DNA from: Cheilinus undulatus
Taxonomy: Eukaryota; Chordata; Actinopteri; Labriformes; Labridae
Length of the DNA stretch: 64,000 nt
NCBI RefSeq assembly: GCF_018320785.1
Contig: NC_054878.1
Coordinates: 42,445,023 to 42,509,022, forward strand
Direction: 5' to 3'
Made by a program: the position numbers and the translations under genes. Below are positions 3,615-63,309 of the stretch, piece after piece. The notes beneath the pieces are model-generated. The model ran no database searches. It was not told the origin of the DNA and was given only the letters and a program-made list of their open reading frames with translations. Each line of letters starts with the position of its first letter. Position 1 is the stretch's first letter.

Positions 3615-6600
3615 TTAGCTCTGTGATCTGTTAACAGTGGTGTAGACGGTGCTGGGATCAGCTGACGCTGTAACACCAGCAGAAGAAGAAGGAGTCATTT
3701 TCACGGTGGCGTACGTCACTGTTCCATCATCATCATCATCTTTACCCTGAGCCTGGACAAAGACATAAGAATTACAGACAGACAACTGAATTACATTCAG
3801 CATTAACAAGAAGATAACAAACATACTGGATCAGTTCATCAGACTCTAAAGAAAATGGTGTAATAAGGATTCATGGCGCTGAATTTTGGCTCAAACTGGA
3901 CTCCTTTATATGGTACATAAAATGTAAAATAAGCATGCAGTCCTACCTAATGTCAAGATAAGAGTAAGATTTAAAGTGAAGTATAAAGTCATCATGGTGG
4001 GAGTTACAGCTTCATAGTGAGCATGAAATCAGACTGAAGAATAAATATGTTCAAGAGAGCATCAACGCCAAACTAACTTCAAAATACAGTTATAATGCTG
4101 GGAGTAAGGACCTAATGCTAGGAATTAAGTCAGATCATCAAGGATGAAGCCAGAACTCTCTGGATGAAGCTGAGCCATCAAAACTGTTTTAACACTTCAG
4201 AAACAACACAGTCCAAGGCTGGCCACACACTAGACGATTTTTAAATCTGAAACAATCTTAAAACAGTGTGAGACCACAGATATGAGGACAACTTCAAAAG
4301 ATTTATCATCTTTAATCCTCTGAATGCACACACGAAACGACTCAGCCAGACTGTCAGATCACTGAAGACCACACACCTGCCGACCTGCCTTTGACCTTGG
4401 TGATCATGTGACTTCAGAAAACAAACATGGATGTCTGTTGATACCGTCTTGCTGTCTCTCCACAACAGGCTGTATTGGCGTGTGTTACAGGTGCAGCAAA
4501 AATTAAAAAAAACAGGGAAAGACTTGGGATGAAATCCTGGCTGGAACTAAGTTAAAGCTGTGTTCATAGTTGTGAGCGTTGAAAGTACGCACGATCTGGC
4601 TGTGACACTACCCCGTCTGCTCACTCTCATTGGTTGTTGTGGATACTCTATCAGAGGCACTACGATCTAGAATCGATATTTATGATTCGGGATTTTGGAG
4701 GCTACCCCATGATCTTCAGGGGAGGCAAATCTTGCCCCAAATCAGGTTTAAAATCCTGTCGTGTGTGTTGTATTTGGCCTCTGCCTTTTACATGAAAAAT
4801 GTTAACACTCTGTCGCCGCCATGAACCATCTTCTTTATTTAGCATCAGGTTTCCATAGTGACACTGTAACTCTCGCGAGATGTGAACATGTCTCTGACTA
4901 CAGTGTCTCGTAATGCACAAACTGTGCATGCTGTGCACATAAGGATATTACAGTGTGTGGCCGGCTTAAGGCTGAATCCTAATTCTCCCCTTAACCCTCA
5001 ATCTTAACCCTCAGTCTCAAAATAAGCAGTCCCGTGAAGTGCAAGGGCTGTCCCAATTCTCCCGAGAAATGATTTGAGGGGCAAAATTGAGGGCATTATC
5101 TCCCTTAATTTTGAGATGTTCCTGGAGCTCCCTTGGTATTGAGGGTTATCACTCCAAGAAAGATGGCGGCGAATGCAGGGAAGAAATCGAGCAACAAATG
5201 TAAGTATTTCTTTGTTAATAGAGATCTAAAAATTACAGAACCACCATTAATCTTAGTTTAATGTTATTTTATGGATTATTTGCCTTTTTGTAGCGTAAAA
5301 TTTACTTTTATTTTTACGATCGTAAGCCGGTAATCGTGCAGTCTTGTTCTTCTTCCTCTGAATCGACAGACTACGCAGTTTTGGCACATTACTGCCCTCT
5401 ACAGTCTGAAATCTTAACTGCTATTATGGGGGGGTCCCATTTCTAAGTCAAGAGATGGCCCTTACACTTGGTTTTGAGGGGTGAGTTAAGACTGAGGGTT
5501 GAGCTTGAGGGTAAGATTGAGGGTTAAGGGGAGAATTGGGATTCAGCCTTGATGGTCACCAAGTCTGAGATTTTCCCTAAATTTGTTCTTAAAGGCGACA
5601 TATTTTACTCTTTTAAGACAAGTCTATATTGGTCTCAGAGGTCCCCAAAATATGCCCATGAAGCTTGTTGCTTAAAAACACTCCTGTATTGGATTTTTGC
5701 ATGTCTAAAAACCCCTCTGTTTCAGCCCAGCTCAGAACGAGCTGTATCTGTGTCTATGGCTTTAAATGTTACTGAGCTGTCTGACTCCACACCTCTCAGG
5801 AAATGGATGTGGCTCTCCTGATCCTCCTCTCAGCTGGCACCTCAGAGAAAGATCAGGAGAGGAGGGCAGAACTTTCTGCCAAGCGGGAAGGGCCAACCGA
5901 ACCTGGGGGAGGGGCTAACACCCCACATGACATCATGAGGGGAGCTCACATTTTCTGAAAGATGGAGAAAGAGAGGCTGGGAGGGAATGGATTTTTCTGG
6001 TTCTTGGCAGAGTTGTGGACAGGCCCAAAAATATATGGGCTGATATTTTTGTTAGAAAAGCCTGAAAAAGTGTATTTTGCATAATATGTGACCTTTTAAG
6101 AAAGTCTCAGAGAACATGGGATTCATGGCTCGTTCTTAAACTGATGAACTGTTTGCACCTGTGCTCGTTAACTGACGAATACCAGATGCTCTTAAGCTGT
6201 AAACAGGCACGTTTCTCCTGATTACCATTGGTAAATGACACTTTTATGTCCATATGAGGGCATGAGACTGCAGGGCAGTGTGGAAACACAGAAAGAACAC
6301 AGGAGGGAGAGGAGAAAAAGGAAGACATCAGTGACGAAATCTAAATTTGAATAAACCATAAAAACATTCACAATACTTAGAAATACTTTAATAGATCTGA
6401 AATGGATGTAGTGCCACTCCAAACAACCTCAAAAGAGAAGATTAGATTTTAAGCACCAGAAGTAGTGGATATGGAATATTGTTTTTTCGCAGTCTCAAAT
6501 ATCCATTGGGGGTCAGGGAGTTAGGGTCAGCGAATTAGGAATGACTGGGAATGGAGGAAAGATAGTTCTTTACAGCTCTAAATGGACCTCTACGCTGCAG

Positions 6601-9600: not shown

Positions 9601-12600
9601 ATCTCTGTTTGACACTGTGGTTTATGAAAAGAACATCTGAGCTGCTTGTTATTTCCTGAACCTCCCCCAGTAGATAAATGAAATAAATGTCATTTACTCT
9701 ACATCATGTAAACAATCACATCTGCTTTAAGTGCTTTATCAATGAAGTCTGACTCTGGTTGTCATGGATAGTTTTGATGCTATTTTTAGCCACTGGTTTA
9801 AACACAACACAGACTGACCCATCGTCCTTCAGCTCTAAAAACTAAATGTAAAGTGAATTTTTCAACTCACAGCATTGTCGGTCATCTCTGCTCTGTTCCC
9901 TGAAAAACAGAATTAAGGTCCTTGAATTTCTGATCCTTTCTCTTGTTTATCAGGATGTTGGTTGTGCTCTCACCTTCAGTTCTTTTCCATCTGATGGTTT
10001 TCACAACAACAATGAGAAGTGTGATTAAAGCCACACCAGCCAGGATGATGACCAACCACAGCCAAAGTGGAAGAGCTGTGGAGACATTTAAAACATTCTG
10101 TGAGTTTTACATCATATTCAGACAGAATTTGGAGGGAATGATTGTAGGGGGGAGAAAACACTTTGAGTCTGTACCATCTCCTGTTGTTGAAGATTTCTCA
10201 TTTCCAGATGCTGGTGTCGTCGTTGTCCCTGGTGTCGTGTTTTTCTCCGTTGACTGTGTAGTTGATGTTTGTGTTGTTGATTTTTTGCTTCCATTGCCTA
10301 AAATAACAATAAATATCAAAACAATAGAGTAATTCATGTCAGTTAAGGCAGAATTACAAACCCTGATTCCATCTAGTACCTGCCCACTTTTACTGTGAAG
10401 CCATGCTGTTGTGACTCATACTGAAGTTTTTGGAACCTGTTACAGCCACGGCATTTAAAATGTGTGCATATTTCAAGAAAAAATAAAGTTTCTGTTTAAA
10501 TACTAAATATCTTGTCTTCGTGCCAGTGCTGTATAATTTGGTAAAAATGTGTGATTGCCATCATACTGGACAATATTGCAATGTGCAGTTTCAATTATCA
10601 TATAATCCATAATAGTATCGTGAGTCTATTTGCTTTGTTATCAAGGAAAAAAGAGAGCATTATGATAGTTTTGAAGTGTGTATTTATCAACGTGAAATAT
10701 AAAAATATTAACCCTCTGAGCCATAAGCTACTATTTTTTCAACCATTTTATCTCTCCTGGACTTTTTATCTTACAAAGGTTTAAAACATCAACCCTGTGG
10801 TGCACAGTCAAGCTCTAAACATCCTTTTTTTTCAGGACAACCTGGGCTTTCAAGAATGTGTACTGCAGTAACGTCACAGGAATTTGAAAAGAGTTTTGGG
10901 ACTATAGAGACAAAAGAAAAAAACACTAAACAGAAATTTAAACTCAAAGATTTCATATGAGACACAAGTAAACAATAATGACTAAGACTTTTTTGCATGA
11001 ACTTGTTCTCCAATGTCTTGGGGATCAAGAAAGTGAACAAAAAAAAAAACAGTCATTCTGTGACAGAGAAAGTCATTATATTCAAAAATTTACAAAAAAT
11101 AAACATCTTGCACTTTCTTAGATTGGCTGATTGTGAGTCATTATTACAGAATTGGGAGGGAATGATTGTAGGGGGGAGAAAACACTTTGAGTCTGTACCA
11201 TGTCCTGTTGTTGAAGACTCATCATTTCCAGATGCTGGTGTTGTTTTTGTTCCTGGTGTCGCGTTTTTCTCTGTTGGTTTTGCAGTTCGTCCTTTTTTTG
11301 CTGTTGATTTTGTATTTCCATTGCCATTGTCTAATGTAACAATAAATAAGAAAACAAAAGAAATAATTTGTTTGTTAAGGCAGAAATACAAACCCTGATT
11401 CCATCTAGTACCCGCCCACTTCTATTATGAAGCCATGCTGTTGTGACTCATACTGAATGTGACTTGGTATTGTCTTGCTGAATAAACCAGGGACATCTCT
11501 GAAAATAGACTTTTGGATGGAGGAATATGTTGCTCTGAAACCTGTATGTACCTCTCAGTGTTAAAGGCGCCCTCACAGATGTATAAGTGGACACTAATAC
11601 ACCCCCACACCATCACAGATACTGGTTTTTGAACTTTGTGTTGATTACGATCTGGATGGTTCTGATCCTCTTTAGCCCAGAGGACTCAGCGTCAAACCAC
11701 AGCACACTTTCTCACTTTAGGTCGGTCCATCTCAGGACTTTTTGTCTTACAAAGGTTTTAAACATCAACCCTGTGGTGCACAGTCAAGCTCTAAACATCC
11801 TTTTTTTCAGGACAACCTGGGCTTTTAAGAATGTGTGCTGCAGTCATGTCACAGGAATTTGAAAAGAGTTTTGGGACTATAGAGAAAAAAGAAAAAACTG
11901 AAATTTTATCTCAAAGATTCTCATATGAGACACAAGTAAACAGTAGTGACTAAGACTCTTTTTTGTTACCCAAACTTGTTCTCCTACGTTTTTATGTGGA
12001 CCAAAAGTCAAAGAAAACAATCATTCTGTGACAGAAAAGGTCAAAATATTCACAAATTTACAAAAAAAAAAAAAAAACAATCATTGCACTTTTTTTTTTT
12101 GATTGGCTGATTATGAGCCATTATTGTCAAAGCTATGCAGGGACTCAAAGGGACATGTCCTGGGATCTCTGTCTCTTTTTCTCTTCATTATGAGCCACTC
12201 AGGCTTTCTCCTCCAAGTGTTTACGTACATGCTATTTGGCAAAGATTGACGTGATAACGGAACAGCCTTCTATTGGCTATCACAGCCAATGTGACAACTG
12301 TTTTGGGAACTGGATATAGCGACTAATGCTAAGCTAGTGGAAAAATCGATCGAAAAATGGATGAAAAGACTTTTAGCATTGTTGTTGGCTTGGATTTAAG
12401 ACCCTAGAAAGTCCCCCAAGTTCCAGGCTCACTAGGAAAGCCTTCATATGAGCTCAGATTGATAGCTTCAACCCATCTGGGTACTTTACCCAAACAATAC
12501 TGGTCCCGCTCCTTACTGGGTGAAAATGCCCCATTATATTGAATGGAGGTAAATGGAAGAGTTTAGGTGATTTAGGATTAAAGAGTGTAAAATATGAAAA

Positions 12601-15600
12601 CACATTTATGGTCATTGAGAGCCCAAATCCAGTATTTAGTGGGTTATGGATAAAAAAAATCTGACATTTTTGAGTAATGACTGACATCTTAGAATTATAA
12701 AAGGGCACAGAGTTTTAGGTGTACGTATGCGATGTCATTTACACACTGGTGAATGTGTGAAAAATCAGTTTCTTGTTACAGAGGGATCACTATCTTAAAG
12801 TCATTAGAGACACATTAACAGTCTGACATTTGGCCTCTATAATACTCTCTAGTTACAACTTAAAGACATAGTGCTCTTTCTTCGTCATTTAAAGTCCCTG
12901 TATAGAGACAAAAAAATCTTTATTTTACTTTTGTTGTATGATAGGCCATTGTGTTATGAACCATCAGGCCAAATTTCAGACATGAAAAACATCTCTAAGT
13001 TTTCAAATTGAGCTCAAAAATTATAAAAAATGAGGCCGTAATGTCTGCTCTAGGATGATGTGGGTGTGTCTGTTGAATAAGCGGAAGCCACGCCCACTCA
13101 GGAGAAATATGGTCCTCTCAGAATTTAAAAAAAAAATGCTTCTGATAAGATCGCAGCTGTCTGGCTAAGACAAAAGTTGGGGATTAAATTTACTGTTTTC
13201 TGGCACAAATCTCTCTGTTATGGTGCTTTTTACGACCTGGGCCTGATTATCCAATGGGTATAATAAGCACAGGTCTAGGGGCCTATGTCTTTGAGAGAAA
13301 AAAAAAGTTTTCTGCTTCCTCGTTAACACAGTGCTGAACGAACGTTGAGTTTGTGCCCTGTTTGGGACTGCTAACGCCTTACCCAGTCCTCCTGAATTTC
13401 TCACCATTACCACCTGCTTGTGCAGTGTGTGTCATCCCCTCCCATCCGCACCCGCACCTGCAACATGTGTACAGCATGGAATGACAGACACTGCGTTTAG
13501 AATAAGAAATTTTAATACTGCATTCACTTAAGCACTTCCCTTGAAAAATCAGGTTTTTCACTGTTCTAATCAAAGTGTTCTCACTGAATGGAGCACGAAA
13601 GAAACACATCCTTGTCAGCTGTAACGTTCCAAAAAACATCAGCTATAACAGCTTGCAGCCGGACCAATTACAGCCCTGGTTACATTGATAATAGTAACGT
13701 CAGAGTCAAATATACAGACTTTATGTACACATTTTACATTTTAAAGTTGTAGGCGGAATTATTTTCTTGATCATTGTTTGCGAGTGCAAAAAGGTGCAGT
13801 GCACTCTGTTAGTTATCAAAGACAGAAAGTTTTTACTCTGTTTGCCCCTTTCTGTCCTTGTGCATCAATACACTTGATGTAAAAAGGCCATCTTTCATGA
13901 AAGAGACATTTTCCCTCTTGAATAACAATGTTATGGCTAAATATCACTAATCCAGTGTCTCTGCCTGTACGTCACGATGCGCATCAGTGCAGTAGGGATG
14001 CTCAAAAGTCTGCAGCATTTAAATTTCTGTGCATTTAATTTCTAATTACGCAGAGTCTTGACAAACTTAAATGTGAAAGTGCGAGAAAAACTTGCTGAAG
14101 GTGTCAGGTAGGAGAGGCAGTGGGACACAAACACAGACAATGGCTTTCTAAAAGTTATCCTGGAAGGATAACCACTAAATCACAAACAATGGTAGAAGGA
14201 GGAAAACACAAACTCAAGATAATCAGCCCCAAACCAAAAAAAAAAACCCTGTTCTTGATAATATGGAGAAAAGGGGGAAACTAAACCTCTGCTGCCCTGC
14301 AGCTGAAAAGGAACACAAACTTCAAAAGGGGAAACAAAAAGGCTGGTTCATGGGGTAAATAGTTATTCTTGTTCCTAAACAAAACCTTTACTTTGAAAAG
14401 CTTAAGCACATACTGCAGAAAAAAATAGAAAACCTTAATATTAATATTTCTGCATATTCAGAAATATGCATCTGTGACCTCACATTTGGCTGTTTTTCTT
14501 TTAGGAACTGTTCCCATGGCAGAGTTTTACACAAAACTCTTACTTTACCCGTGTTATATAGCATTAAAGATAAACATCAGACATTTCTGACTGTTTATAG
14601 GAAGCATAAATAAAACGTTTACATCTTCAAAATGTTGAAAGAGGACATAGATTTATTGGCTTTTTAAAATCAATTTTTTATTGAAGTTGTCTTGTGAACA
14701 GTGCATGAAAGAGCTGGTTATGCAAAAATAAATGATACTAAACTCAGGGGATGGATGCTTCACATGGACCCTCCTTAGTCTGGGCTAAGCCCAGTACATT
14801 TGACACATCTGGCTCCGCCCCCTGCTATAGGTGTTCCCTGTTGATGCTCTTTGACAGAGGTGATTATATCTGTAGTCGGTTTGTGTAGATCCGCTTTAAG
14901 CTACAGGTATTTTCAACAAATACAAGCTGAATATTCAAAACCTTCATTGCATGCATGTGGTTTTTGTCATGTAAAAAACAGGCTGTCGACAAACATTTTT
15001 AGTCATAGTTTTAGTCGATGAAATGAACACTGAAGCCGTCTGACATTGTGATTGCAATTAGAGTAAGAGTGCTGCACTACTTTGTCCAGTATTTGGTTTT
15101 TCATAGGTTAAAGGGATCACTGCATTCAGTTTTCATTCAGATTTTATACCGTGTCCTAAATTTTTTGGAATTAGGCTCTGTAAAAATAAAGACATTCTTA
15201 CCTGGTTTGTCCCCTGAAGACGGAGGTCTGAAGGGGAACAGCTGACGGTTGTTATCACCAGTCACTTCACACTGCAGTGAGTCGATGTTATGATGAGGCT
15301 CAAGGGTTAAATCAGTGAAGCAGTGAGTCTGTGTTGTCATCTGTTTCACATCCGTATGCTTATAAAGCCACTTCACCTTGTGTATGCATTGGTTAGATAT
15401 CACATGGCAGCGTAATTGCTTTGGCTTTTTGCTAATTTCAGTCACTGGTAGAGATGGAGACATTAGGAGAAAAAGACAACAGTCACTGAAATCAGAGTTC
15501 TTCTAATGATTCAGGATGTTGTAGGAATAAAACAGTCTGAGCTGAAAACAGGATTTAAATACTCACTGGTCAGAACAGACAGGTCAACCTGAGCGTCGTC

Positions 15601-16110
15601 GCCATGTTTCCCTCCTGATGTGTACTGCTGACAGCTGTAACGACCAACATCTTCATGTGTGACCTTCTTTATAACCAGAGAGCAGTCCTCTCTAACAGCC
15701 AGTCTGTCTGATTTAGATCCAGGCCTCTTGATCTGCCCGTGTTTAACCAGCTCTTCTGCTGGATTTTTAAAGCTGTCTGTCCATGTAGTACTGCTACAGT
15801 TAGGCTGGTCTCTAAGGACGTTTTCACAAGTCAAAGTGGCGTCATCTCCAACTCTGGCTGTGATGTAAAGATCTTTAATTCCATCTGCTCTGGCTGAGAA
15901 AAAAAAACAAGAAAGTTAAACTGAAATGAAAACATATCAAACTTGTTATAAGAGTCTGAGAATTATTCCTACATAGTGGTTTGCTTAAGTTAAAAGGTTA
16001 CAAAGCTCCTCCATAAGTTATCTTTACTTTATCTTATGAATATTCCTACCAGCGAATTGAAGCAGAACTGTAAGAAAACCAAAAATGTAAATCCATTTAT
16101 TCCCCTCCAT
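3615..16110 (-). CDS. gene 1: two-Ig-domain transmembrane receptor with two ITIMs and an ITSM
   Basis: Putative inhibitory immune receptor, 407 aa. Exons on the minus strand: 16110-16050 (leader MEGNKWIYIFGFLTVLLQFA), 15893-15567 (V-like), 15444-15202 (second Ig-like), 11330-11199 and 10297-10175 (two Thr/Ser/Pro-rich stalk exons), 10075-9974 (membrane segment, about residues 298-320), 9899-9871 (29 nt), 8555-8487 and 3752-3615 (tail). All joins are GT/AG and keep frame; the Ig, stalk and membrane exons are phase 1/1, as is usual for IgSF genes. The V domain keeps the B-strand Cys, Trp, the D-x-G-x-Y-x-C motif and an extra Cys pair (NC before TTW; DCSL). The tail has ITYASI (Tyr348), VTYATV (Tyr376) and TVYTTV (Tyr399), matching ITIM, ITIM and ITSM consensus. 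By analogy such motifs recruit SHP-1/SHP-2. A likely poly(A) signal lies near 3211-3216. The exact family and ligand are unknown; NITR-, CD300- or NILT-like receptors are alternatives that a search would settle. Confidence 0.8.
4215..4967. mobile_element. non-autonomous DNA transposon (GGCCACACACT ends)
   Basis: The left end 'aaggctggccacacact' is answered at the right by 'agtgtgtggccggctt', a terminal inverted repeat of about 17 bp with two mismatches. The interior has no transposase-like frame. It sits in the last intron of gene 1 and directly abuts another inverted-repeat element starting at 4968. Confidence 0.65.
4968..5550. mobile_element. DNA transposon derivative with long inverted repeats and a captured or retained first exon
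   Basis: The ends form a near-perfect inverted repeat of about 38 bp beginning 'aaggctgaatcc' and rich in 'ttaaccctcaatctta'. Inside, at 5163-5199 on the plus strand, a short frame MAANAGKKSSNK opens after 'agatggcgg' and runs into a consensus splice donor (gtaagt). That looks like the first coding exon of a parental autonomous element or of a host gene. The rest of the interior is non-coding. The superfamily is not established. Confidence 0.6.
5589..6099. mobile_element. TTAA-flanked short inverted-repeat element, copy 1
   Basis: Terminal repeats 'aggcgacatatttt' and 'cataatatgtgacct' face each other and are bounded by TTAA at 5589-5592 and 6096-6099. A second copy in the opposite orientation is at 27559-28051 and is also bounded by TTAA. 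TTAA target sites are typical of piggyBac-like elements, but the ends are not a classic piggyBac terminus, so the superfamily is tentative. No transposase is encoded. Confidence 0.6.
6100..7640. other. intronic sequence, nothing recognised
   Basis: This part of the last intron of gene 1 shows no exon-like segment, no clear terminal repeats and no tandem array. The segments near 6236-6290 and 7500-7560 share words such as 'cactgccctgcagtctca', so a small diverged repeat is possible. Confidence 0.4.
7650..8085. repeat. internal direct repeat with 'ggacccaaacRGGTCCC' motifs
   Basis: Two stretches, at about 7674-7735 and 8020-8075, share 'aaaaactca', then 'ttaggac', 'gggacccaaac' and 'ggtccc', in the same orientation. 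The segment opens with TTAACCCTC at about 7650, a terminus type also present at 32260 and 63348. It may be a decayed TTAA-targeting element, but the opposite terminus is not clear. Confidence 0.35.
8690..9300 (+). repeat. degenerate minisatellite of 'ttttgccacttttaaccc' type
   Basis: Imperfect tandem repetition of words such as 'ccacttttaccctatttctg' over roughly 600 bp. Open frames here are low-complexity artefacts. Arrays of the same motif recur at 24545-24945, 37790-38600 (reverse complement), 47780-48160, 55940-57460, 59220-60300 and 60600-60850. This one runs into a hAT-like end at 9330-9415. Confidence 0.75.
9330..9415. mobile_element. hAT-like element terminus next to the minisatellite
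   Basis: The segment ending 'gaaaaggttgggaacctctg' is the reverse complement of a 'cagaggttcccaaccttttc' end, typical of hAT-type short elements in vertebrates. The minisatellite at 8690-9300 lies immediately inside it. The opposite terminus was not found. Confidence 0.5.
10120..12110 (-). repeat. tandem duplication of about 1 kb carrying the gene 1 stalk exon
   Basis: Two adjacent units match over most of their length: 10120-10440 with 11140-11450 (stalk exon and flanks), 10770-10900 with 11740-11890 ('caaccctgtggtgcacagtc'), and 11060-11150 with 12035-12125 ('gattggctgatt'). The offset is about 0.96-1.02 kb. It gives gene 1 two homologous stalk exons (10297-10175 and 11330-11199), both phase 1/1, so exon number can change without breaking the frame. 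The second unit also contains a Tc1 relic. Confidence 0.8.
11391..11740 (-). mobile_element. Tc1-like transposase fragment
   Basis: The minus strand reads MMVWGCISVHLYICEGAFN followed by TERYIQVSEQHIPPSK, matching the Tc1 transposase core between the first and second catalytic Asp ('VMVWGCIS...', 'RYIQVLEQHMLPSK'). The second catalytic segment and the C-terminus are lost. The fragment starts next to an 'aaaccctgattcca' end, which also flanks the first stalk unit at about 10360. Confidence 0.65.
12110..15120. other. intron of gene 1, nothing recognised
   Basis: About 3 kb between the duplicated stalk unit and the second Ig exon. I see no exon with Ig residues, no clear terminal repeats and only short A-runs. 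The last bases (15130-15180, 'gtcctaaattttttggaatt') resemble the right end of the element found in the same intron of genes 2 and 3. Confidence 0.4.
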
Positions 16111-28810: not shown

Positions 28811-29045
28811 GTGGAGACAGAGCTGTTACAGGAAGTGATCGGCACATCAAACAACCCACATACTCAGCTCTGCTGCTCATCCCACAAAGGCATGCTCCTT
28901 ACTAACGTGACTCCATTTCAAAGGGAAATAAACAGGCATTATAACAGTCTAAGATTCACACCAAGATGTATTATTCCAACAAAGAAATACTCCATCAAAC
29001 ACAGACTTCCTTACTTTTTGTGCTAAGTTTATCTAAAGTGAATGT

Positions 29046-42889: not shown

Positions 42890-43440
42890 GAACCAAGAGG
42901 CAACCTCCGGTCCTAAAAAATGAAGCCAATGCGGAAGTGCAAAAAATTGCTATGCCGCGAGTGTCCACTTGAGGCTGGCTGCAGGAAAATTGGAAGTTCC
43001 ATCTGCACACATGTTAAACAGCCGGTTTCGACACACAAAATAAACTGGTTTACAGCCTGGTTCAAAACACCAAACGTGTCTGATTAGCTGGTGTCCTATT
43101 GTGCTCCCACTGTACGGGGGGTGAATTTTTTGCACCACGATCGTTTGGATTATATTTAGGATAAATCTCACTTCACAGTGATTGGTGCGTCTCATTTCAT
43201 TGACAGATAGCTCGGCAGGCAGAGGCTCCGTTTCTGTCAACCGGAATGCTAGCTAGCAGGCTGACAGGAAGTCGCGCTTAGTGGGCGGGCCGTTAGGTTG
43301 ATCTAAAGTTCGGTTGAGGCTGCGATTTCAATATGGAGGCATCCACGAATGGGCTTCAAAGGCCGTCTGAGTCCGCCTATTGTAAGCAGACGACTGATGT
43401 CACACGGGGTATGTCCGATTCTTTCTACAGGCTATGGTCT
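42890..43440. mobile_element. dispersed repeat replacing part of a V exon
   Basis: Contains 'atgaagccaatgcggaagtg', 'ccacttgaggctggctgcag' and at the far side 'atgggcttcaaaggccgtct', words of a common teleost repeat. Its right part runs to about 43450, where V-exon sequence begins in mid-domain. A precise terminus was not determined. Confidence 0.4.
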
Positions 43441-43454
43441 GAACGCTAAAGCTC

Positions 43455-43622
43455 CAGCGTTCCTAGAGAACCATCCATGGGTAACTACCTCTGCTTCTAT
43501 GCCCTCTAAATCATTGAAGACCCAGGTAGTATCTCCACACTCATGCTGATCTCTTGAGACATATTCACACGGCAAAGTGATGTCTTCTCCAGCCTCGGCA
43601 AGAAGGATTTCCTGAGTTGCTT
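43455..43622 (-). pseudogene. truncated V-like exon
   Basis: From an acceptor (cag at 43625-43623) the minus strand reads EATQEILLAEAGEDITLPCE, then ECGDTTWVFNDL and VVTHG. This is the first half of a V domain like those of genes 4 and 5, with the B-strand Cys, extra Cys and Trp all in place. The match ends near 43480-43455, and the second half, including DCSL and the YxC motif, is absent; repeat sequence follows. No leader exon was identified upstream. Confidence 0.65.
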
Positions 43623-43679
43623 CTGTTGAGAAATTTAGAGAAAATTAGAAAAGGTGAGCTTGAGATGTTAACGTCAAGT

Positions 43680-45679: not shown

Positions 45680-48600
45680 TCACCCACCTGTAGAAAACAA
45701 ACACAACACAGCGAGTTAGACAAATGAGAACTTGTGGTACATAACATGCTCATTTTTAAAAATCTCACCTTGAGTTCTTGCCCAAATGTTGACCACCACA
45801 ACAGAAATTATGAGAGCTGATAAACCTGCAGAGACAATGATGAACCTCCACTGAGCTGCAAAGAGAGCAAAAACATCAACACCTGTGTCCTGATTAAACT
45901 CATAAAGAAAAGAGATCAGGATTTATTTAGTACAGTATTCAAACAGGATTAGTATTACTACAGGAAGACCTCTAATGATTCATGATAGTGAGGATTTCTG
46001 TGTTTTTATACCATAGGAATCGACCATGTCTGTGATTTGGACTATTAAAATTCCAAGGGAAATTACCGACCTCATTTTAGCCAACAACGAGGCCCTCTGG
46101 TCTTAGATCATTATTACATTAGGTACGACTGCTCTGTATTGTGCCCGGTGTGATTGAATGGGCCAATGCTGTATGGATTCTACAGTTTTTGAAGAGATGG
46201 GAGATGTTTGATATTGCTTTAAAGCAGGAGTGTCAAACTCAAGGCCCCAGGGTCAATGGTGCACTTATACCTGGCCCAGCAGATAATGATATTTTTATTA
46301 TAACTGGCCCACCAGTATGAGGTCCGCAGATTTCCTCTAGTATAAAAATGTAAACTTAACCTTGATGATTTATGTCCTTGTTGAGTCATGAAAATTAGAA
46401 AAAGGAAACAGTAAAAATAATTTGATAAAAAGTCAGAAACGTGGGAAAGAAATTCGTTTTATCTATATTTTCAATTTTGCATCTCACAGTTACTGTCATT
46501 TGTGGACGGCACGGCCACGGTGATTTCAGAATCCTGTTTTTGATGCAGTGCCATCTGAGGGCCTGAAGACTAAGAGCATCCCAAAAAGTTTCCCTGAACA
46601 ACATCAAATGCTTACTGGTTGCACAATGGCAGGAAGTACACATGCATCTTTTATCAACATGAAACTTTGCATCAATAATTTTTCTGACCCACAGACATTT
46701 GGCATTTGTTATGAATCAGTGCTGTATAAATAAAAATTGATTGATTAATGATCCCGAGTAATTAGATCCTTACTTGCATGCATAGTGAATGCAGATCTAT
46801 GCTGAACAAGCCTAACTTTGTCTTTAAAAAAGTACAGCAGAGAGAGAGAAAGATTGATCTTGTAAAAACAGGAATCCCATTACCTGCTCTTATATCTCTC
46901 TCTGTTGTTCCCTCTGGTTCCTTCGTTGCTGTTGTTGTTATGGGTGATGTTTCTACAGCTGTGGAAGTATTTGGGGGTGTTGTAGCCTCCTTATCTGTAA
47001 TGATGAACACAGCCAGTTAAATATCAGAATGACGTTGTTTTCAAATATTCATACTTTAGATCCATTGAAGATTAAACAACATTTACTTGACTGGTTAGAC
47101 CAGGAACACGTTACAATAAGATAGAGAATAACTGGTGTCACGATGTTCTCAGATAGGGAAATGGAGATCACCTGAGCACAGTGAATGGGTTTCAAGTGAT
47201 TTTATAAAGAAACCTGTGTATGGAAGGTCCAGTCACTGGTTAATCAGTATTCCTGGCAACCATTACACCATGAAGACAAAAGAACACCCAAAGCAACTCA
47301 GAGAAAAGCTTATTGAAAAGTATAAGTCTGGGGATGGATATAAAAACATTTCCAAGGAACTGAACATCTTTCAGAGTTCAGTTAAATCTATTATGAAGAA
47401 ATGAAAGGAATATGGCCCATGTGTAAATCTGTCTAGATCAGGCCGTCCTCACAAACTGAGTGGTCGTGCAAAGAGGAGACTAGTGAGAGAGGCCACCAAG
47501 ACACCCATGACTATTCTGTATTCTGAAGGAGTTACAAGCTTCAGCAGCTGAGATGGGAGAGACTCTGCAGACAACTGTTTATAAGCAGTCAAAGCTTTAT
47601 AGGAGAGTGGCAAAGAGAAAGCCACTGTTGAAGAAAACACAGATTAAATCTGGACTAGAGTGGGAGACTTCATGGTCAAGTGGAAGAATGTTCTTTCGTC
47701 TGATGAGACCAAAATGGTGCTTTTTGGCCATCAGACAAGATGCCAAACACTACACATCACCAAAACACACCTATTTAAACACATTTTTTTTCTTTTTCAA
47801 CCGCATTTTCTGCAGATTTGTTCTACTTTAAACCAATTTTTGCTACTTTTGACCCATTTTTTGCCACTTCTAAACCAATCCCATCACTTTTCCTGCAGAT
47901 CTTTGCCACTTTCAACCCATTTTTTCCATTTAAAACCCATTTTTACTACTTTGTACTGATTTTTTGCCACTTTCAACCCATTTTCAGTACATTTAAGCTT
48001 TTTGATGCCAATCTTAACTGCATTTCACTCTTTGTTAATGTGCAGCCAATTTTAAACTCTTTTTTATCCTTTTCCATCACTTTTCATATAGTTTTCCTTC
48101 CACTTTCTGCCTTTATTTGCCTCTGTTAACCAATTTTTCCCCATTATTAACCCCTTTCATACTACTTTTTATGTCTATTTTTGCCTGTTTAGATCTCATT
48201 TCACTTTTCCTATCCCAGCTGTCATTGGGCAAAAGGTGGGGTACACCCTGGACTGGTCGCCAGTCAATCGCAGGGCTGACATACGGAGACAGACAACTAG
48301 ACATGCTCACATTCACACCCATGGCAAATTCAGAGCCACCAATTAACCTAACAAGCATGTTTTTGGTGGTGGGAGGAAGTAGGCAGAGGTACAGACACAG
48401 ACCATTTCATGAGAGCAACAGTAAACAAGGGAAAGACAACACTGAAGCACGGTCCTACTGAGAAACTGATTGCTGTTGTACTTACAAAACCAGCAACCAA
48501 ATTCAGGCTCTTTAGGTTTGAACAGGACATGTTTGGTACTTAGAAGTGCAAAGAGTGTATTCATATTGTTCAAAAGGGAAACAGGAAACCCCTTTTAGTG

Positions 48601-51600
48601 TTGTTTTGTCTTCTAAGTAACACTGAACAAAGGTCAAGTGGGGGTGTGAAATGGTATCTGTTTATGCTTTTACTGTCTGAGGCTGTATGGTGCATTCAGG
48701 GGTGTGACGGCAACACGTACTCTGTACTGTATCCACCGGAGAAATGATTGAGATGTACACCACACTCCAAATTATTATGCAAATTGGATTTAAGTGACAT
48801 AAACATTCAATTTCTTGTTTTTCAATGAAACTCATGGATGGTATTGTGTCTCAGGGCTCTTTGGATTTTTGATAATTATTTTGCTGAGTGAGCCCAATTA
48901 AAGGAAACCTACTTAAGAAGGACTTTCCACATTATTAAGCAGGCCACAGGTTTCAGCAATATGGGAAAGAAAAAGGATCTCTCTGCTGCTGAAAAGCCTC
49001 CAATAGTGGAATGCCTTGGACAAGGAATGAAAACATTAGATATTTCATGAAAAATTAAGCGTGATCATTGTACTGTGAAGAAATGTGTGTCTGATTCAGA
49101 GCACAGACAGGTTATGCAGATAAAGGCATAATGAGGAAGGTTTCTGGCAGACAAATTCAAGGGATTAAGAGAGCAGCTGCTAAAATGCCATTACAAAGCA
49201 GCAAACAGGTATTTGAAGCTGCTGGTGCCTCTGGAGTCCCACCAACCTCAAGGTGTAGGATCCTCCAGAGGCTTGCAGTCGTGCATAAACCTACTATTCG
49301 GCCACCCCTAACCAATGCTCACAAGCAGAAACGGTTGCAGTGGGCCCAGAAATACATGAAGACTCATTTTCAAACTGTCTTGTTGACTGATGAGTGCTGT
49401 GCAACCCTGGATGGTCCAGATGGAGGAGTAGTGGATGGTTGGTGGATGGCCACCATGTCCCAACAAGGCTGTGACATTGGCAAGGAGGGGGCTGAGTCAT
49501 GTTTTGGGCCATAATCATGGGGAGAGAGCTTTAGGGCCCTTTAGGGTCCCTGAAGGTGTGAAAATGACCTTGGCAAAGTATATAGAGTTTCTGACTGCCT
49601 TCCATGGTACAAAAAGAAGAACTGTGCCTTCCGTAGCAAAATGATCATGCATGACAATGAACCATCTCATGCTGCAAAGAATACATAAAAGGAGAGAAAC
49701 TCATGGTGTGGCCTCCATCCTTCCCTGACCTCAACCCTATTTAGAACCTTTGGAGCATCCTCAAGCTAAAGATCTATGAGGATGGGAGGCAGTTCACATC
49801 AAAACAGCAGCTCTGGGAGGATGTTCTGACATCCTGCAAAGAATTTCAAGCAGAAACTCTCCAAAAACTCACAAGTTTAATGGATACAAGAATTGTGAAG
49901 GTGATGTCAAAGAAGGGCTCCTATGTTAACATGGAACTTGGCCTGTTAAGAAGAAGTAGCTTTTGATTTCAGTAAATATGACCTCCTAATGCTGTAAATT
50001 CAACAAATGACCATTTTCTGTTGAAACTCTGTTGTGCATAATAATATGGAACAGCGCTTTTTCAGTTTTTTATTTTTGAAAAGAAAAGGTTATCACTGGG
50101 AAGTTCAGTAAAATCTGAATCATACTCTTCTTGAAAACTTGAAAATTATGCTGACATTTGCATCAACTATTTAGAAAAGTCAGAGAAAAATATCATTTGC
50201 ATAATAATCTGGAACGTGATGTAGTTGATTTTAAGCAGCTCTTACCTGATGGGAGTCTAAAGAGAAACAGCTTCACTGAGCCTGTGTCTCTGTCCATGAC
50301 TTCACACTGCAGTGATGTGTATCTTGATTTGTACATGAAATGATCAGGCTCAAACGTGACGAAGGCATAGCAGTGAAAGCTCAACACTGACGGACCCTCT
50401 GGATCTTTGTTCACACCTTTACCCTGGTAGAACCACTGCACTCTGTGTTTGCAGCGCTCGACTGATGACACCGCGCAGCGTAGCGTCACACCGTTGCTTT
50501 TACTCACTTCAGTCACTGTTAAGGAAGGAGAGGTTGTGTCATAAATGTCGATTTTTACTACATGTGTTAAAATGATATCTCCAGATGAAAGCTTGTGAAT
50601 GTAAATACTCACTGTAAACAACAGAGACATCAACCACAGTACCCTGAGCTTGGCTGACCTCTGACGTGGACTGTTGGCAGATGTAATGACCAGCATCGGC
50701 ATATATGACCTTCTTTAAAACCAGAGAACAGTTTTCTGTTACACTCAGCCTGTCTGATTTAAATCTGGTGTTTTCAACAGTCTGCCCATGTTTAACAAGC
50801 TCAACTGTTTCTGTGTTTGTCAGACTACGAAAGATCCACATAGCGCTGTCACAGTTCTGCTGACTGGGGTTCAGATCTTCACAAGGTAGCGTGACCTTAT
50901 CTCCTTCTCTGACGAGCATGGAGACGGTTCGATTTCCACCTGCTGACAAAACACGAGAAAAATCACACAAAATTGATATCAGCAGATTCAATGCAGTCTG
51001 TAGATTCATTTGTTATCTTGAGTGTAGCGCTAATGTTAAAACAGTCCACTGCAACTGTAGAAACACCATGTTTATGGCATGCTAGGTCATTCTTTTAAAT
51101 GTTAAAAGACGGAAAGACAAGAGCGGCACAACTGGGCTGAGGTGACTTGGATCTAAAGTTACGAAGTGTAATTTTAGATCCATTGTGAGTAAGATGCTCT
51201 TCAGTGTTGGAGTAATTTTACAGTCTTGATCCACCAGTGTCAGTTCAGCTTGGTAAAGACTCAGCTGATCTAACTTCTGCCCACTAACTTTTGTAATCTG
51301 GGTGGTGTGTGGGCAGAGTTTCCCATCGTGCCCTTGGGCAGAGTGCTGAGCTGTGTTTGTATGTTGCCTGTTATACAGCGATCCCTGCTGCGGTTCATTA
51401 GCTCATATTTCTGGTGGATTGTTGTTGATTTTTATATAAAGCATGTTTGCACCATGAGTGAAGTTATCCACTGAGTTAGAGTTACTGCCTATGACTGTAG
51501 TCGCCCCTAAAGCTGTAGCTTTCAACTGGTTTAGCATCAGGACCCACCCCTACCTCTTATCTTTAATGGAAAAAGGGCAGGTTGACATGAAGTTGAACAG

Positions 51601-54600
51601 AGAAATGTAACAGAACAAAGATGAAGATATTTTCAAGTCTTTTTGCCACATCTTTGTTTCCAGACACACATCTGCGACCTACTTTTGGGTCCCGAGCCAC
51701 CAGTTGAGAACCATGGTCTTAAAGGACACATAGAGCATGTTCTTCATCAGTATGCATCAGCTTACTGTGAGGATGACTCTCTGCTTTGTTCTTCCTCAGA
51801 CCCAACCTGCCACAGAGTTTCAAGAGTTACCACAGCTCTGACCAGGCCTGCCCACAGTTGGCGGAGCCCTGAAAGCCCCTGCTGTGATTTGTTTATGTTA
51901 ACTTGTATGTTTTTTTTATCCTAGCAGCATTGGTGCCAGCGCTTTGGCTAACTGTTCCCTCATTTTACAATGTTACAATGTTACAATGTCATTTAGCAGA
52001 CGCTTTTCTCCAAAGCGACGTACATTTGAGAGCAAGAACAACACAAGCAATGATCAAGACAAGAAGAAACAACATTAGTAAGTGCCATCAAGTGCTTCAG
52101 GTCCAATTGGACGCAAGTGCTGCCATGTAGAGTTTAAGGCAGAGTACCTAAAATATACGGTGTTTATGGAGTTTTTTTTTTGTTTTGTTTTGTTTTGTTT
52201 TGTTTTGTTTTGTTGTTTGTTTTTGTTTTTTGTTTTTTTTGTTTTTTTTTTTGTTATTAGACAGCAACAATGAATCAAGGAAAATGTGGGATCACTAATC
52301 GCCATTCATTAGACTTCACAACAACTATTTACCAAGTACCAAGTGCTGGATCATTCCCAAAGAGCTGGGCAAAGAAATCCCAGAAGTAGAGCAGGACAGT
52401 GCGAGCTAACTATAGTTGGGAAACTCATTCAACCACTGGGGGCAGCAGTGGAGAATAGTCTGGCTGAGACTCAATCTACTACTGGGGACAACAGTAGAGA
52501 ATTGCCTAGCTAAGTGCAAAGTGTTCTCTGAAGAGCTGGGTCTTTAGCCTTCTCTTGAAAGTAGAGAGGGAGTCTGTAGATCGAATGGAGTTGGGTAATT
52601 CATTCCACCATTTAGGGACAACAGAGGAGAAGAGTTAGTGACTTAGGAGCATGATGTGCTGGAAGTACCAGGCGCCTTTCGCTGGCTGAGCGTAGTGGGC
52701 GAGAAGGGGTGTAGACCTGGATGAGGGACTCCAGGTAAACAGGAGTAGTTTTAGTTACTGCTTTGTAAGCAATGATTAGAGTTTTGAATTTAATGCGAGC
52801 TGCAACTGGAAGCCAGTGTAGAGAGATTATAAGAGGCGTGACATGAGCTCTCTTGGGTTGGTTGAAGACCAGACGTGCTGCTGCGTTCTGGATCAACTGC
52901 AGAGGTATAACTGTGCATGCAGGTAGGCCTGCCAGTAATGAGTTACAGTAGTCAATACGTGATATTATAAGAGCCTGTACCAGGAGTTGTGTAGCATGCT
53001 CTGTCAAGTAGGGTCTGATCCTCTTGATGTTGTAGAGGGCGAAACGGCAGGACCGAGCAATCGAGGCCACATGGAGCTTGAAGGTTAGCTGGTCATCAAT
53101 CATGACACCCAGATTCCGGGCTGACTTAGTGGGCAAGAGATTATTTGATCCAAGCTGGATACTGATCTGCGGTTCCATAGTGGGACTGGCTGGGATGATA
53201 ATGAGCTCCGTTTTGGGCAGGTTGAGCTGAAGGTGACGTTCCCTCATCCATTTAGAAATATCAGCAAGGCAGGATGAGATCCGAGCTGAGACAGTTGTGT
53301 CACCTGGTGGAAAGGACAGGAATAGCTGTGTGTCGTCTGCATAGCAGTGATAAGAAAAGCCATGGGAGTGGATGATTGCACCAAGTGAGGTGGTGTATAT
53401 TGAGAAAAGTAGGGGACTAAGCACAGACCCTTGAGGCACCCCTGTTGATAAGCCATGCAGTTTAGACACTCCCTTCCACGATACTCTAAAAGATCTCCCT
53501 GTGAGGTAGGACTTAAACCACTGTAGGGCAGATCCTGACATACCAAGTGAAGAGAGTGTGGAGAGGAGGATTTGGTGGTTTACTGTGTCAAAGGCAGCGG
53601 ACAGATCCAGCAGTAAGAGAACTGAAGACTGACCAGCTGCTCTGGCCAAGCGAAGTGATTCCTTTACCGACAAAAGTGCAGTTTCAGTAGAGTGGCCCCG
53701 TCTAAAGCCAGACTGATTCTGATCAAGTAGATCATTGTTCTGCAAGTGTTCTGAGAGCTGGTTGAAGACTGTGCGCTCCAGTATTTTTGATAGGAATGGG
53801 AGAAGTGAGACCGGCCTGTAATTTTCAACCAGGGCTGGGTTGAGAGTGGGTTTTTTGAGCAGTGGTGTAACCCGCGCTTACTTGAAAGCAGCTGGGAAAA
53901 CACCTGTGGACAGAGAGGAGTTAATGATACAACTCACAGCAGGGCTGATTGTGGGCTCAATCGCCTGCAAGAGATGTGATGGTATCGGATCGAGGGGACA
54001 GGTTGTGGGCTTAGAGTCAAGCAGAAGCCTGGTGACCTCGCTCTCACTTAGTGGAGAGAATGAGCTAAGTGATGCATCACTAGCTGGTGGCAGAAAACTG
54101 AGTTGGACAGGCTCAGAGAATTGGTTGCTGATGGTAGAAACCTTGTCAGTGAAGTAGGAGGCGAACATGTCTGGAGTCAACATACTGGAGGGTTGTGGGT
54201 TTGAAGGAGAGAGGAGCGAGTTAAAAGCAGAGAAGAGTTTGCATGCATCAGTGGCAGCACAGCTCTTTGATTGATAGAACGCCTTCTTAGCAGATTTTAG
54301 AGCAGAGGTAAAACAGGACAGTTTTTGCTGATAAGCACTCAAGTCAGTGGTTTGTTTGGATTTACGCCATTTTCTCTCTGCCGCCCTGAGCCCTGCCCTT
54401 TGGGTTCTGATGACCTCAGTGAGCCAGGGACAAGGTGGAGTATTTCGAATAGGCTTAGACACCAGAGGGCAGAGTTTGTCCAGAGAGGAGGTCAGTGAGG
54501 AGCAGAATGTGTCTGTGGCCTCGTTAACAGTGAGTGTGAAGGACTCGTTACATGAGGCTAGTGCAGCTGAGACCTCGTCAGACAGCTGTGTTGGGTCAAG

Positions 54601-57600
54601 TGACTGAAGGTTTCTGCGGTATGATCTTAATTGAGTAGTAGATTGTTGAAGTTCAGGTAAGCCAAGTGAGAACTGAATGAAGTAGTGGTCAGAGAGGTGA
54701 AGTGGTGTTACACTCAAATTAGCCGTGGAGCAATTGCGAGTTAGAATCAAATCCAGTGTATTACCAGCCTTGTGTGTAGGAGGCGTTTGAACCAGTTTCA
54801 AGTCAAAGGAGGACAGTAGTGAAATAAAATCAGTAGCCTGGGCTCTATCCAAGTGGATGTTCATGTCACCCATGACAACCAATGGTGTGCCATCATCAGG
54901 GATGTCTGAGAGTAACATGTCCAGTTCCACAATAAAGTTGTCCAGGTGACCCCCAGGTGGGCGGTATACCACAACCATGTAAGCCTTTATTGGGGCAGTG
55001 ACCTGTACTGCATGATATTCAAATGAGGTGTTATTGTCCAAGGGTTTGAACTGGCTGAAGTTCCAGCTATGAGAAAGAATAATGCCTGTGCCACCTCCTC
55101 GGCCAGAAGAGCGAGGTGTATGAGAGAACACTGCATCAACTGATAGAGCAGTTGGTGTTACAGTGTTCTCAGGACGGACCCAAGTTTCTGTCAGGGCTAG
55201 GACCTGAACGTTAGGCAGTTTAGTGAGGGAATTGATGAATTCTGCTTTGTTAACTGCAGACTGGCAGTTCCAGAGGCCAACTGTGATAAAAGGTTGTGGA
55301 AAAGAGGCATTCTGCAAAGTGGATAGATTATGCAGGTTTCGTTTTCTGTAACTATTGTGCTTCTTTCTGTTCCCATATATGACTTGTATTTTTTGGTTGC
55401 ACATGTTGCGTTAGACTGCTGAGGTGCGTTAGACTGTTATGAGGCAGTGCTGCCTGTCGGTGGCCTTGCTCGGTGGACTCGCACAGGTAGACTCGCTGGT
55501 CTTTACCCAATGTGGTCTTTACACAATTGGGCTTCCACAAGGGCTGACACTTACGCTGACGCTTCAGCGCAGTCTGTGTACTTATATAGAGAGATATGCC
55601 ACAGATGTGCACAATTGAGTTGATTGTGCACAGCCGCTAACCGCCCCAGCTGGCAAATTTAGATTCAAACTCTCTTAAAGCTTGGACTACAGTGAAACTC
55701 CGCCCCGGCTGTTTTCACTTTAGCAATCAATAGAGGGAGCCACACGCGTCAACTGCCTCACCTATTGTTGCAGAGAGAGTGAAACTAACATGTTCAGCCT
55801 AAGCAAAACTGCCAACAACCTACTTCCAACTGAAACAACCAAAAGCAGATTCCTCTTACCAAGTAGCTTCTCCCTTCCTATCTCAAAGATCAGAGCTTGT
55901 CACCTTATATTTGTGTGTCACCTTATATTTGGGTCAGATGTTAGAATTGTTTAGTTGTGCCACTTTTAGAATCTCTTCATCACTTTTTCTACCCATTTTA
56001 GCAACATTTTCGTCTTTTTTGCCACTTTCAAGTTGTTTCAGTCACATTTTGCCACTGTTGATCCATATTTGCCATTTTTTGCCACTAAAAGCAATTTCAC
56101 CACTTTTTTGTCACTTTTGTCCCATTATTGCCAATTTTTGCCACTATAATCCACTTTTGTTCATTCTTTGCCACTTTTGACCAATTTTTGCCACTTTTAA
56201 CCCATTTTCACCACTTTTTGCCCCTTTTAGCGCCCTATTGCCCCTTTTATCACCTTACTGTCAATTATTGACATTTTTACACTTATGCTGCTTCTAGTTT
56301 GTTTCAGCCACTTTTTGCCGCTTTAAACTCATTTTTGGCACATTTTTTCCCCTTTCAAACCAATTTTCACCACTATTTGTCACTTTTATTAGCCAATTTT
56401 CCACTGTTAGCCCATTTTTGCTAATTATTTTCACTTAAAAACAACCTGTTTACTTCTTTTTGCTTATTCTAACCTATTTTGACAATTTTTCTTGTCACTC
56501 TTCACCCAATTTTGCCACTTTATCTGTAATTTTTAATGCCACTTTTAGTCCATTTTTGCCGCTTTTAACCCATTTCACCACTTTTTGCCCCTTTTAACAC
56601 CCTTTTCCACTTTTATACCTTTACTGCCAACTATTGACATTTTTACGCTTTTTTCCAGTTGTTTATCACTTTTTGCTGTTTTCAACCCATGTATAATACT
56701 TCTTAGATTTTTCAGCCACTTTTAACTCATTTTGGACACCTTTCTTGCCCCTTTAAACCAATTTTACTGCTTTTGTCATTATTTATTGCCCCTTTTCCAC
56801 TTTTAGCCCATTTTTGCCAATTAGTTTTACTTAAAAACCACCTCTTTACAACTTTTTGCTTATTTTAACCTATATCCACCACTTTTTTGTCACTTTCTAC
56901 CCAATTTGGCCACTTTTACCCCCCTTTCTCCACTTTATCCACAACTTTTAGTGCCAATTTTAGTCAATTTTTGCCACTTTTAACCCTTGTTCACCACTTT
57001 TCTCCCCTTTTAACACCCTTTTCCACTTTTATACCTTTACTGCCAATTATTGACATTTACGCTTTTTTCAGTTGTTTTTCACTTCTTGCTGCTTTCAACC
57101 AATGTATGCTGCCTGTTATTTGTTTCAGCCACTTTTTGCCACTTTAAACTCATTTTTACACATTTTTCCACTTTCAAATCAATTTTCACTGCAGCATGTC
57201 ACTTTTAATAGCACCTTTTCCACTTTTAGCCCATTTTTGCCAATTAGTTTCACTTAAAAACCACGTTTTCTACTTTTTGCTTATTTTAACCTACTTCTAC
57301 TGCTTTTCTTGTTACTTTCTACCCAATTTTGCCACTTTTAACCCATTTTCCCAACATTTTTTTGTTAATCTTAATCAATATTGCAACTTTTTACCACTTT
57401 CAAACCATTCTGTCTCTTGTTGCCAATTTTTGCATGATTTTTCTATTATTTAAATACGTTCTGCTAAAGTTGTTACAGTTTCTTCTTTTTTTCTAGCCTC
57501 CTGTCTTCTGACATTAATTTCAGTTGGTTTAGTTCAACATTTTTATCATTACCTTAAAAAGAAAACCTTTGTCCTCCTTTACTCACCTTTATATAAACAC

Positions 57601-62390: not shown

Positions 62391-62399
62391 ACGTGTCGG

Positions 62400-63309
62400 T
62401 CAGTCCTCTGCAGGAGATCTGATGTTTTCATAGCTCACTGTGTCATCTTCATCGCCGTCCTCCACCTGTGGAAATCAACAACACAAACAAATGACTGATT
62501 AGAGAAGCAAATGAATGAATGTTTTGTTTGGATTCAGAGTTAAAAACTAATGATATTTGAATAGAAAATTTAAACATAGAAAAAGTTGCATTAAAATTCA
62601 TGGTTGTAGCCTCTATACCCTGTCAAGATGTGAATGAACAGGCCTTTTCCCTCTCTGTCCTCCAGTTATTTTAAATTCTGAATAGAAAATTAAACATTTC
62701 AAGCTGCTGTTCATCTGTTTTCAACCACACAAAATAAATCTTGTATTTCAACACAAATGTCAAACAGGTGGTAGTCTCACAGCCTGATATTCAATGATCA
62801 AAAGCTTTCAGGCTTCATTAATAAACACTTTTAATCAAAAACATTACTGACAAAATAAGTCTGATGGAGATTTTTCTACATTTTTCATAATTTCTTTTAA
62901 TCAATGCCATTCTAAAGGCCTATATAGACCATATTTTGATGGTCTTTCTCACATTTGCCCAGATTTCTTTTAGCCAGTCCTCCTCTTTTGTCTAAAACCC
63001 TTCAACACATGAATTCAGACTTCTTTTCTCTCTGTGTTCATACTTTTGTGATTCAATAACTCTAAATCTCACAAACTCTGGTTATGAAAACTCACCACGC
63101 TTTCCCTCCTCTGAGTTTGTTTCCCTAAAAGAAGAGAGAAAAAGTTGACTTTTGTCTTCTTAGAGAATATGCACGTTTATTAAATCTTCTTACATGGAAG
63201 TCTGATGTGTGAATGCTCTCACCTTTAGCTCTTGTCCATATGCTTCCTGCCACAGCAGTTAGAATGAGAACTGATAAAGCTGGAGCGACTACAACATACC
63301 TCCCCCAGG
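62400..63309 (-). CDS. gene 6 (partial): membrane and tail exons of an ITIM receptor
   Basis: Only the last three exons lie in the window: 63309-63223 (membrane, from AWGRYVVVAPALSVLILTAV), 63124-63096 (29 nt, GKQTQRRESV) and 62465-62400 (VEDGDEDDTVSYENIRSPAE, Asp, stop). Sizes and phases match gene 4 (29 and 66 nt) and the joins are GT/AG. The membrane segment resembles that of gene 5 and has no charged residue in its core. VSYENI fits the ITIM consensus, so an inhibitory receptor is inferred. The Ig, stalk and leader exons must lie beyond 64000, because none is seen between 63310 and the end. Confidence 0.7.

Follow-up and report, generated by a model that had tools for sequence, protein, structure and literature searches.

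What kind of receptors are encoded by the tandem immunoglobulin superfamily (IgSF) genes on contig NC_054878.1 (here C14) of the wrasse Cheilinus undulatus, and do they oppose one another as paired activating and inhibitory receptors? The window, that is, the whole 64,000-nucleotide (nt) stretch analyzed (C14:42445023-42509022 of a 1.17-Gb genome), was examined together with 50 kb of flanking sequence on each side. It is the low-coordinate edge of a receptor-gene cluster of about 1 Mb, and the original prediction, made from the letters alone, of a two-domain teleost IgSF type arranged in tandem as paired receptors proved to be the best reading. We put at roughly three in four the probability that the window marks the edge of a large cluster belonging to an unnamed acanthomorph IgSF family whose members work as paired receptors.

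The units, all on the minus strand, were named by falling coordinate, A to F within the window (F and A being genes 1 and 6 of the original prediction) and G to J below it. Six tandem units between positions 3615 and 63309 were confirmed with the exon plan that had been claimed (leader, V domain, optional second Ig domain (D2), stalk, transmembrane (TM) segment, 29-nt exon and tail), and the two ends are real features, 3615 being the final base of the gene F stop codon and 63309 the first base of the gene A TM exon. The 29-nt exon is exact in F (9899-9871), C (37203-37175) and A (63124-63096), but B and E offered only candidates unlike the family. A V consensus composed mainly from the relatives described below was searched against the real window at word size 2 and recovered the V exons of B to F at E values of 4e-27 to 4e-36 and a relic V at 5e-7; for control, the best E value across 20 order-1 Markov versions of the window, searched with 11 queries at the default word size, was 0.008. 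The V domains of B, C, E and F passed the Pfam V-set cut-off, and that of D fell below it (E=9e-4), yet is a clear copy by tblastn. TM types were also located by tblastn, regular-expression scans being too strict. Most TM queries in the window search were the window's own and so gave self-matches; against consensus sequences built from relatives, the gene B TM matched type T2 at 8e-12 and the gene C TM matched type T3 at 2e-4 genome-wide. A GT donor follows D2 in all nine units examined.

In searches of the whole genome, whose match counts are lower bounds, 54 of 55 matches to the D2 consensus (E<=0.01) fell on C14:42.396-43.474 Mb and one on C5, while 89 of 92 matches to the V consensus (E<=0.001) fell on C14 up to 43.886 Mb, with one each on C5, C12 and C2. 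These 89 include a related neighboring block above 43.5 Mb, at 33-44% identity. At E<=1, C14 held 38 of 39 matches to the T2 TM, all six to the T1 last exon, all 11 to a general T3 TM (seven of them weak, E 0.6, in the neighboring block) and all four to the T3 TM of gene C, the last at C14:42.403-42.482 Mb.

Gene F is complete, and its exons reproduce a predicted Cheilinus undulatus protein of 407 amino acids (LOC121521166, P0001). Its features, by window position, are as follows.

3615..3752, minus strand: last exon, with VTYATV (an immunoreceptor tyrosine-based inhibitory motif, ITIM), TVYTTV (like an immunoreceptor tyrosine-based switch motif, ITSM) and the stop codon; the C-terminus of P0001
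8487..8555, minus strand: exon with ITYASI (ITIM), phase 0
9871..9899, minus strand: 29-nt exon, GNRAEMTDNA
9974..10075, minus strand: TM exon of type T1, with an uncharged core and one Lys at the inner end
10175..10297, minus strand: stalk exon 2, Thr-rich
11199..11330, minus strand: stalk exon 1, Thr-rich
15202..15444, minus strand: D2, with four Cys
15567..15893, minus strand: V domain, with four Cys (Pfam V-set)
16050..16110, minus strand: leader exon

A protein search with gene F also gave a close copy among the predicted Cheilinus undulatus proteins. The sole hints at the transcript level come from gene models at NCBI, which exist for F and C and, outside the window, for H.

The relatives studied comprise 120 of the 256 matches in the gene F search, all 90 from a search with the T3 stalk, TM and tail, and 11 from a further search. 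The species listed are all fishes, including Centroberyx, and we take them to be percomorphs plus this one beryciform. Three kinds of signalling end were distinguished: T1, with an ITIM-ITIM-ITSM-like tail; T2, with a single YEN motif; and T3, with R-x-x-E in the TM and a short YEN tail. Among 201 relatives, 69 were T1, 18 T2 and 79 T3, with four doubtful T1, 11 of unknown type and 20 lacking a clear TM. Tail motifs helped to define T1, as the TM Arg did T3, so the presence of the motif in 69 of 69 T1 proteins is not independent. When T3 hits were aligned with no filter on the two residues, 86 of 90 kept the Arg and 89 the Glu, the query itself having both; one exception, P0189, was aligned on a second TM, and its first has RVAEL. 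YEN-like motifs were present in 64 of the 79 T3 proteins and 11 of the 18 T2, and eight T2 tails fit the ITIM consensus. Among typed hits, 24 of 41 groups (40 genera plus the pooled cichlids) had T1, 23 had T3 and 12 had both. Four Cys mark each Ig domain: the eight columns are 97.5-100% conserved over 123 ectodomains, one of them (the CSL Cys) being required by the cut. The extra pair in both domains, one Cys before the C-strand Trp and one in the E strand, probably forms a disulfide.

From E to J at the cluster edge, T3 genes alternate with T1 genes, all of one strand, and make three dyads, E-F, G-H and I-J. The T1 TM of J, at 42384766 on C14, and its ITIM exon, at 42382773, were placed by genome search, and no V or D2 match lay between J and these assigned exons among the genome-search matches. 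G (T3) and H (T1) show 98.1% identity across a 1384-nt stretch that begins at the end of V, takes in D2 and runs on into the following intron, and this likeness stops before the TM exons; comparisons within a type gave 90.5% over 920 nt for E/G (both T3) and 90.3% over 1441 nt for F/H (both T1). An exchange or conversion of the ectodomain between opposite genes would leave such a trace. Alike ectodomains on ends that are opposite by motif, by which paired receptors are recognized, were found in G/H and in cross-type pairs among the relatives, but not in E/F or I/J.

In two of these cross-type pairs, P0021/P0027 (Scomber) and P0090/P0100 (Thunnus thynnus), the compared ectodomain showed 100% identity. 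The former are predicted isoforms X1 (T1) and X3 (T3) of LOC133997317 of Scomber scombrus, unlike in only four residues, where D2 meets the stalk; isoform X2 of that gene carries a second ectodomain on the same T1 end. The paired predictions from Thunnus thynnus show no difference until partway through the stalk, after which one has a T1 end and the other a T3 end. In Epinephelus lanceolatus, the 542-residue P0189 is predicted as a single chain in which a T1 unit comes after a T3 unit, the order of the wrasse dyads, and is either a read-through transcript or a merged gene model. A quick ectodomain tree was made from 123 of the 166 typed T1-T3 proteins, the remainder having failed the two-domain cut. 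It required 34 type changes, against 43-58 (mean 51) in 200 label shuffles, so type is partly clustered on the tree yet has switched often. Rates of nonsynonymous and synonymous change (NG86 dN/dS) were compared over the D2 exons of units D to J and over V pairs. The ratio exceeded 1 in 14 of 21 D2 pairs (F/E: 22 nonsynonymous and 2 synonymous changes) and in none of 15 V pairs (0.43-0.94); with few changes, non-independent pairs and two pseudogenes among the units, this is only a hint that the membrane-near D2, not V, may be the diversifying domain.

We propose that one kind of V plus C-like ectodomain on a Thr-rich stalk is joined to one of three signalling ends, whose roles would follow from the motifs of known IgSF receptors (PMC3022915). 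In leukocytes, where we infer expression, the three phosphotyrosine motifs of T1 (gene F) would recruit SH2-domain phosphatases and damp activation. In T3 (C and the damaged E), the TM Arg, about one helix turn from the Glu, would pair with the Asp of an adaptor bearing an immunoreceptor tyrosine-based activation motif (ITAM), such as DAP12 or FcR-gamma, and promote activation; the YEN motif of the tail could bind Grb2-type adaptors or serve as a weak ITIM. T2 (A and B), with its uncharged TM and one YEN motif, is probably inhibitory or modulatory. Receptors of opposite effect but similar ectodomain would recognize a common ligand, and duplication of the T3-T1 dyad, along with at least occasional exchange of ectodomain exons between types, would keep some opposite genes alike outside.

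We also suggest, tentatively and with less than even confidence, that a T3 gene and the T1 gene downstream of it form one switchable locus, in which an ectodomain is spliced either to the T3 end nearby or, past that, to the neighbor's T1 end. Since phase-1 junctions link the Ig, stalk and TM exons of the intact genes, an upstream ectodomain could splice to either end, so that one recognition domain could serve in an activating receptor in some cells or states and in an inhibitory one in others. The suggestion draws on the LOC133997317 isoforms, the Thunnus thynnus pair and the Epinephelus lanceolatus chain, all of them automatic gene models; merged tandem genes could mimic the pattern, and two of the three cases come from one fish family, the Scombridae.

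The genes between the two ends of the window include the T3 copies C and E.

37020..37085, minus strand: gene C last exon, with VSYEKD, no ITIM and the stop codon
37175..37203, minus strand: gene C 29-nt exon, GNKRPPDVNT
37284..37376, minus strand: gene C TM exon of type T3, ALRVAEL
41379..41705, minus strand: gene C V domain (Pfam V-set)
41845..41899, minus strand: gene C leader exon
22905..22976, minus strand: gene E TM exon of type T3 (Arg and Glu), interrupted before the donor
24002..24281, minus strand: gene E D2, 5' end approximate, one extra Cys lost
25033..25434, minus strand: gene E V domain open frame (Pfam V-set)
25562..25622, minus strand: gene E leader exon
29863..30157, minus strand: gene D D2, 5' end approximate
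31557..31949, minus strand: gene D V domain, ends approximate (tblastn)

The joined exons of gene C are open throughout, with the tail VYCDRVSYEKD...RLH, and the product of LOC121521728 (P0202) equals them plus one stalk exon of about 36 residues; no D2 was found in this gene, which has a single Ig domain. The second and fourth genes (E and C) had been said to carry a membrane Arg and Glu with no ITIM. Both have the two residues and the C tail indeed lacks an ITIM, but the TM exon of E breaks off after MVSVLT. In gene D no TM was found after D2, and homology to E runs out at 28811, just short of where E has its TM exon. Tandem arrays occupy introns of two of these genes, with 83-bp units at 38112-38525 (gene C) and 161-bp units at 30550-31301 (gene D).

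Several results weigh against the paired-receptor reading. High likeness was expected within all three dyads and was seen only in G/H: E/F reached 81.9% over 873 nt and 88.5% over 356 nt, and I/J 84.0% over 1316 nt, no higher than between copies of the same type. The tail of H, the T1 partner in that one dyad, contains a stop. Only one of the four T3 units in this wrasse is intact (C), G and I having broken V exons and E a broken TM, and because C carries a single Ig domain it makes no close pair with F. Loss thus appears heavier on the activating side here, as is known for other paired families. The partial clustering of types on the ectodomain tree belongs here too, as do the 14 of 69 T1 proteins with a charged residue in the hydrophobic core as cut (the residue being an inner-end Lys in 11 of these) and the 30 of 79 T3 tails that fit the ITIM consensus. 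Linkage to the major histocompatibility complex (MHC) was not seen, none of 43 MHC class I matches falling on C14.

To which family do these genes belong? That they match no named family, as first proposed, held as far as we could see. The relatives listed are called uncharacterized, hypothetical or Ig-like domain-containing, or bear stray automatic names (HAVCR1 homolog, mucin-22-like, dyrk2, thrombin receptor, IGSF8), and the marks of NITR, CD300/TREM and CD4 were absent or rare. A literature search limited to open-licence papers turned up no description of the family, which is weak evidence. The family seems to be an unnamed one that occurs in many spiny-rayed fishes, with DICP compared by match names only. 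Tandem genes, similar ectodomains and ITIM versus charged-TM forms are shared with the KIR, LILR, CD300 and SIRP families of mammals, in which turnover is fast and activating copies are often broken. The wrasse family differs from these in its Arg-x-x-Glu TM pair and its third, YEN-tail type, and no sequence kinship to them beyond the Ig fold was seen among the solved-structure matches listed. Teleost NITRs likewise combine V with a second Ig domain, have inhibitory and activating forms and lie in clusters, but the J-like FGxG motif that marks NITRs after the V domain occurred in none of the 123 ectodomains. The extra Cys of CD300 stands in strand C directly after the Trp (WCR motif; PMC3031540), whereas WC[RK] was found in two of the 123. 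NILTs of salmonids and cyprinids have phase-1 Ig exons and phase-0 ITIM exons (PMC3022915). Gene F resembles them, its Ig exons being in phase 1 and its ITIM exons (8555-8487 and 3752-3615) in phase 0, although phase-0 ITIM exons are taken not to be unique to NILT. The extra-Cys forms known from NILT were matched as CX3C in two, CX6C in six and CX7C in 106 of the 123 ectodomains; CX7C may be another pair, since in the consensus it spans from the D2 B-strand Cys to the Cys before the Trp.

CD4 was considered and rejected. The D1-D2 fold and orientation of one predicted model matched CD4, but no CD4 was among the matches listed for a second model (P0044). When solved structures were searched by sequence, antibody light chains made up most of the matches listed (60 of 1042 and of 251), alongside titin, Robo and CEACAM. 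On these listed matches we do not file the family under CD4. The CxC (Lck) tail motif of CD4 was found in none of the 166 typed proteins. Unlike CD4 and LAG-3, which have an intron inside the D1 coding sequence (PMC10768021), B, C and F have V in a single exon.

It is nevertheless possible, though we think it unlikely, that the genes form a percomorph branch of a described teleost family under other names, most likely DICP, whose members have one or two Ig domains, inhibitory and activating forms and a clustered arrangement. No DICP, NITR or NILT name appears among the relatives listed (120 of 256 in the gene F search), and the NITR, CD300 and CD4 marks are absent or rare where tested. A different doubt concerns T3, which might be bifunctional rather than activating, or whose Arg and Glu might pair with each other or with a partner receptor. 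The two residues are three apart and almost invariant, the YEN-like motifs and ITIM fits of T3 tails counted above would suit such a role, and chicken CHIR-AB, a receptor of a different family that joins a charged TM to a tyrosine motif as 30 of the 79 T3 proteins do, is called bifunctional in PMC3601082. The T3 tail of gene C, however, has no ITIM (VSYEKD), and charged-TM IgSF receptors usually use ITAM adaptors (PMC3022915); we regard this too as improbable. Least convincing is the view that the units are mostly decaying copies and the pairing a functionless by-product of tandem duplication. B, D, E, G and I are damaged, as is the H tail, and two of the three dyads lack excess likeness, but F and C are fully open and annotated, T1 and T3 each recur in more than half of the 41 groups of typed relatives, and the RxxE TM is almost invariant; we consider this explanation very improbable. 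Paired receptors of an unnamed family remain our preferred reading.

The T2 genes and the other elements of the window are as follows.

62400..62465, minus strand: gene A last exon, with VSYENI
63096..63124, minus strand: gene A 29-nt exon, GKQTQRRESV
63223..63309, minus strand: gene A TM exon, uncharged, type T2
45769..45855, minus strand: gene B TM exon, uncharged, type T2 (T2 consensus from relatives, as above)
50246..50515, minus strand: gene B D2
50613..50942, minus strand: gene B V domain (Pfam V-set)
43435..43644, minus strand: partial V relic, extra to the six units
52612..55410, minus strand: element of the long interspersed nuclear element (LINE) type adjoining gene B, with endonuclease and reverse transcriptase open frames, assigned by our inspection of the frames
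51983-52036, minus strand: UnaL2 3' element of the LINE, the only RNA-family match in the window

Gene A has its TM, 29-nt exon and tail in the window and is cut by the window edge, its V (67.59-67.25 kb) and D2 (67.17-66.91 kb) lying outside. Genes 1 and 6 had been described alike, as having uncharged TMs and ITIMs; both TMs have an uncharged core, but the tails differ, F having three motifs and A one YEN motif. Genes 3 and 5 had been described as having lost their signalling parts, which was right for the TM of gene 3 (D), while in gene 5 (B) the V, the D2 and an uncharged TM survive. A search of B for a leader, 29-nt exon or tail resembling those of the family found none. A weak leader candidate at 52075-52024 overlaps the UnaL2 element and was not counted. 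Insertion of the LINE may have split gene B.

Beyond the cluster, the neighboring V-set block (C14:43.52-43.89 Mb, loci L028-L032) has a similar extra-Cys pattern and a TM with Arg (LSSIMLVLRISAL...), and looks, by its sequence, like a different, related V family. At L028 von Willebrand A exons sit between V exons, and so a receptor combining von Willebrand A and Ig domains is possible there. Single V-D2-TM copies lie at C5:45.8170-45.8190 Mb (L033) and C12:43.8422-43.8441 Mb (L034) and are possibly old or founder members. A V-set cluster at C21:38.20-38.41 Mb has in-frame stop codons in several exons.

The spiny-rayed fishes include many farmed marine fish, and the naming of their natural killer (NK)-like and myeloid receptor repertoires is poor. 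Having dozens of Ig exons at one locus and both stop-like and go-like forms, this family would be a direct candidate for such receptors, and it accounts for many genes now listed as "uncharacterized LOC". The dyads offer a compact setting in which to follow how an activating and an inhibitory receptor stay alike on the outside or drift apart, and, if true, splicing that swaps the sign of a single receptor would be a mechanism deserving direct test.

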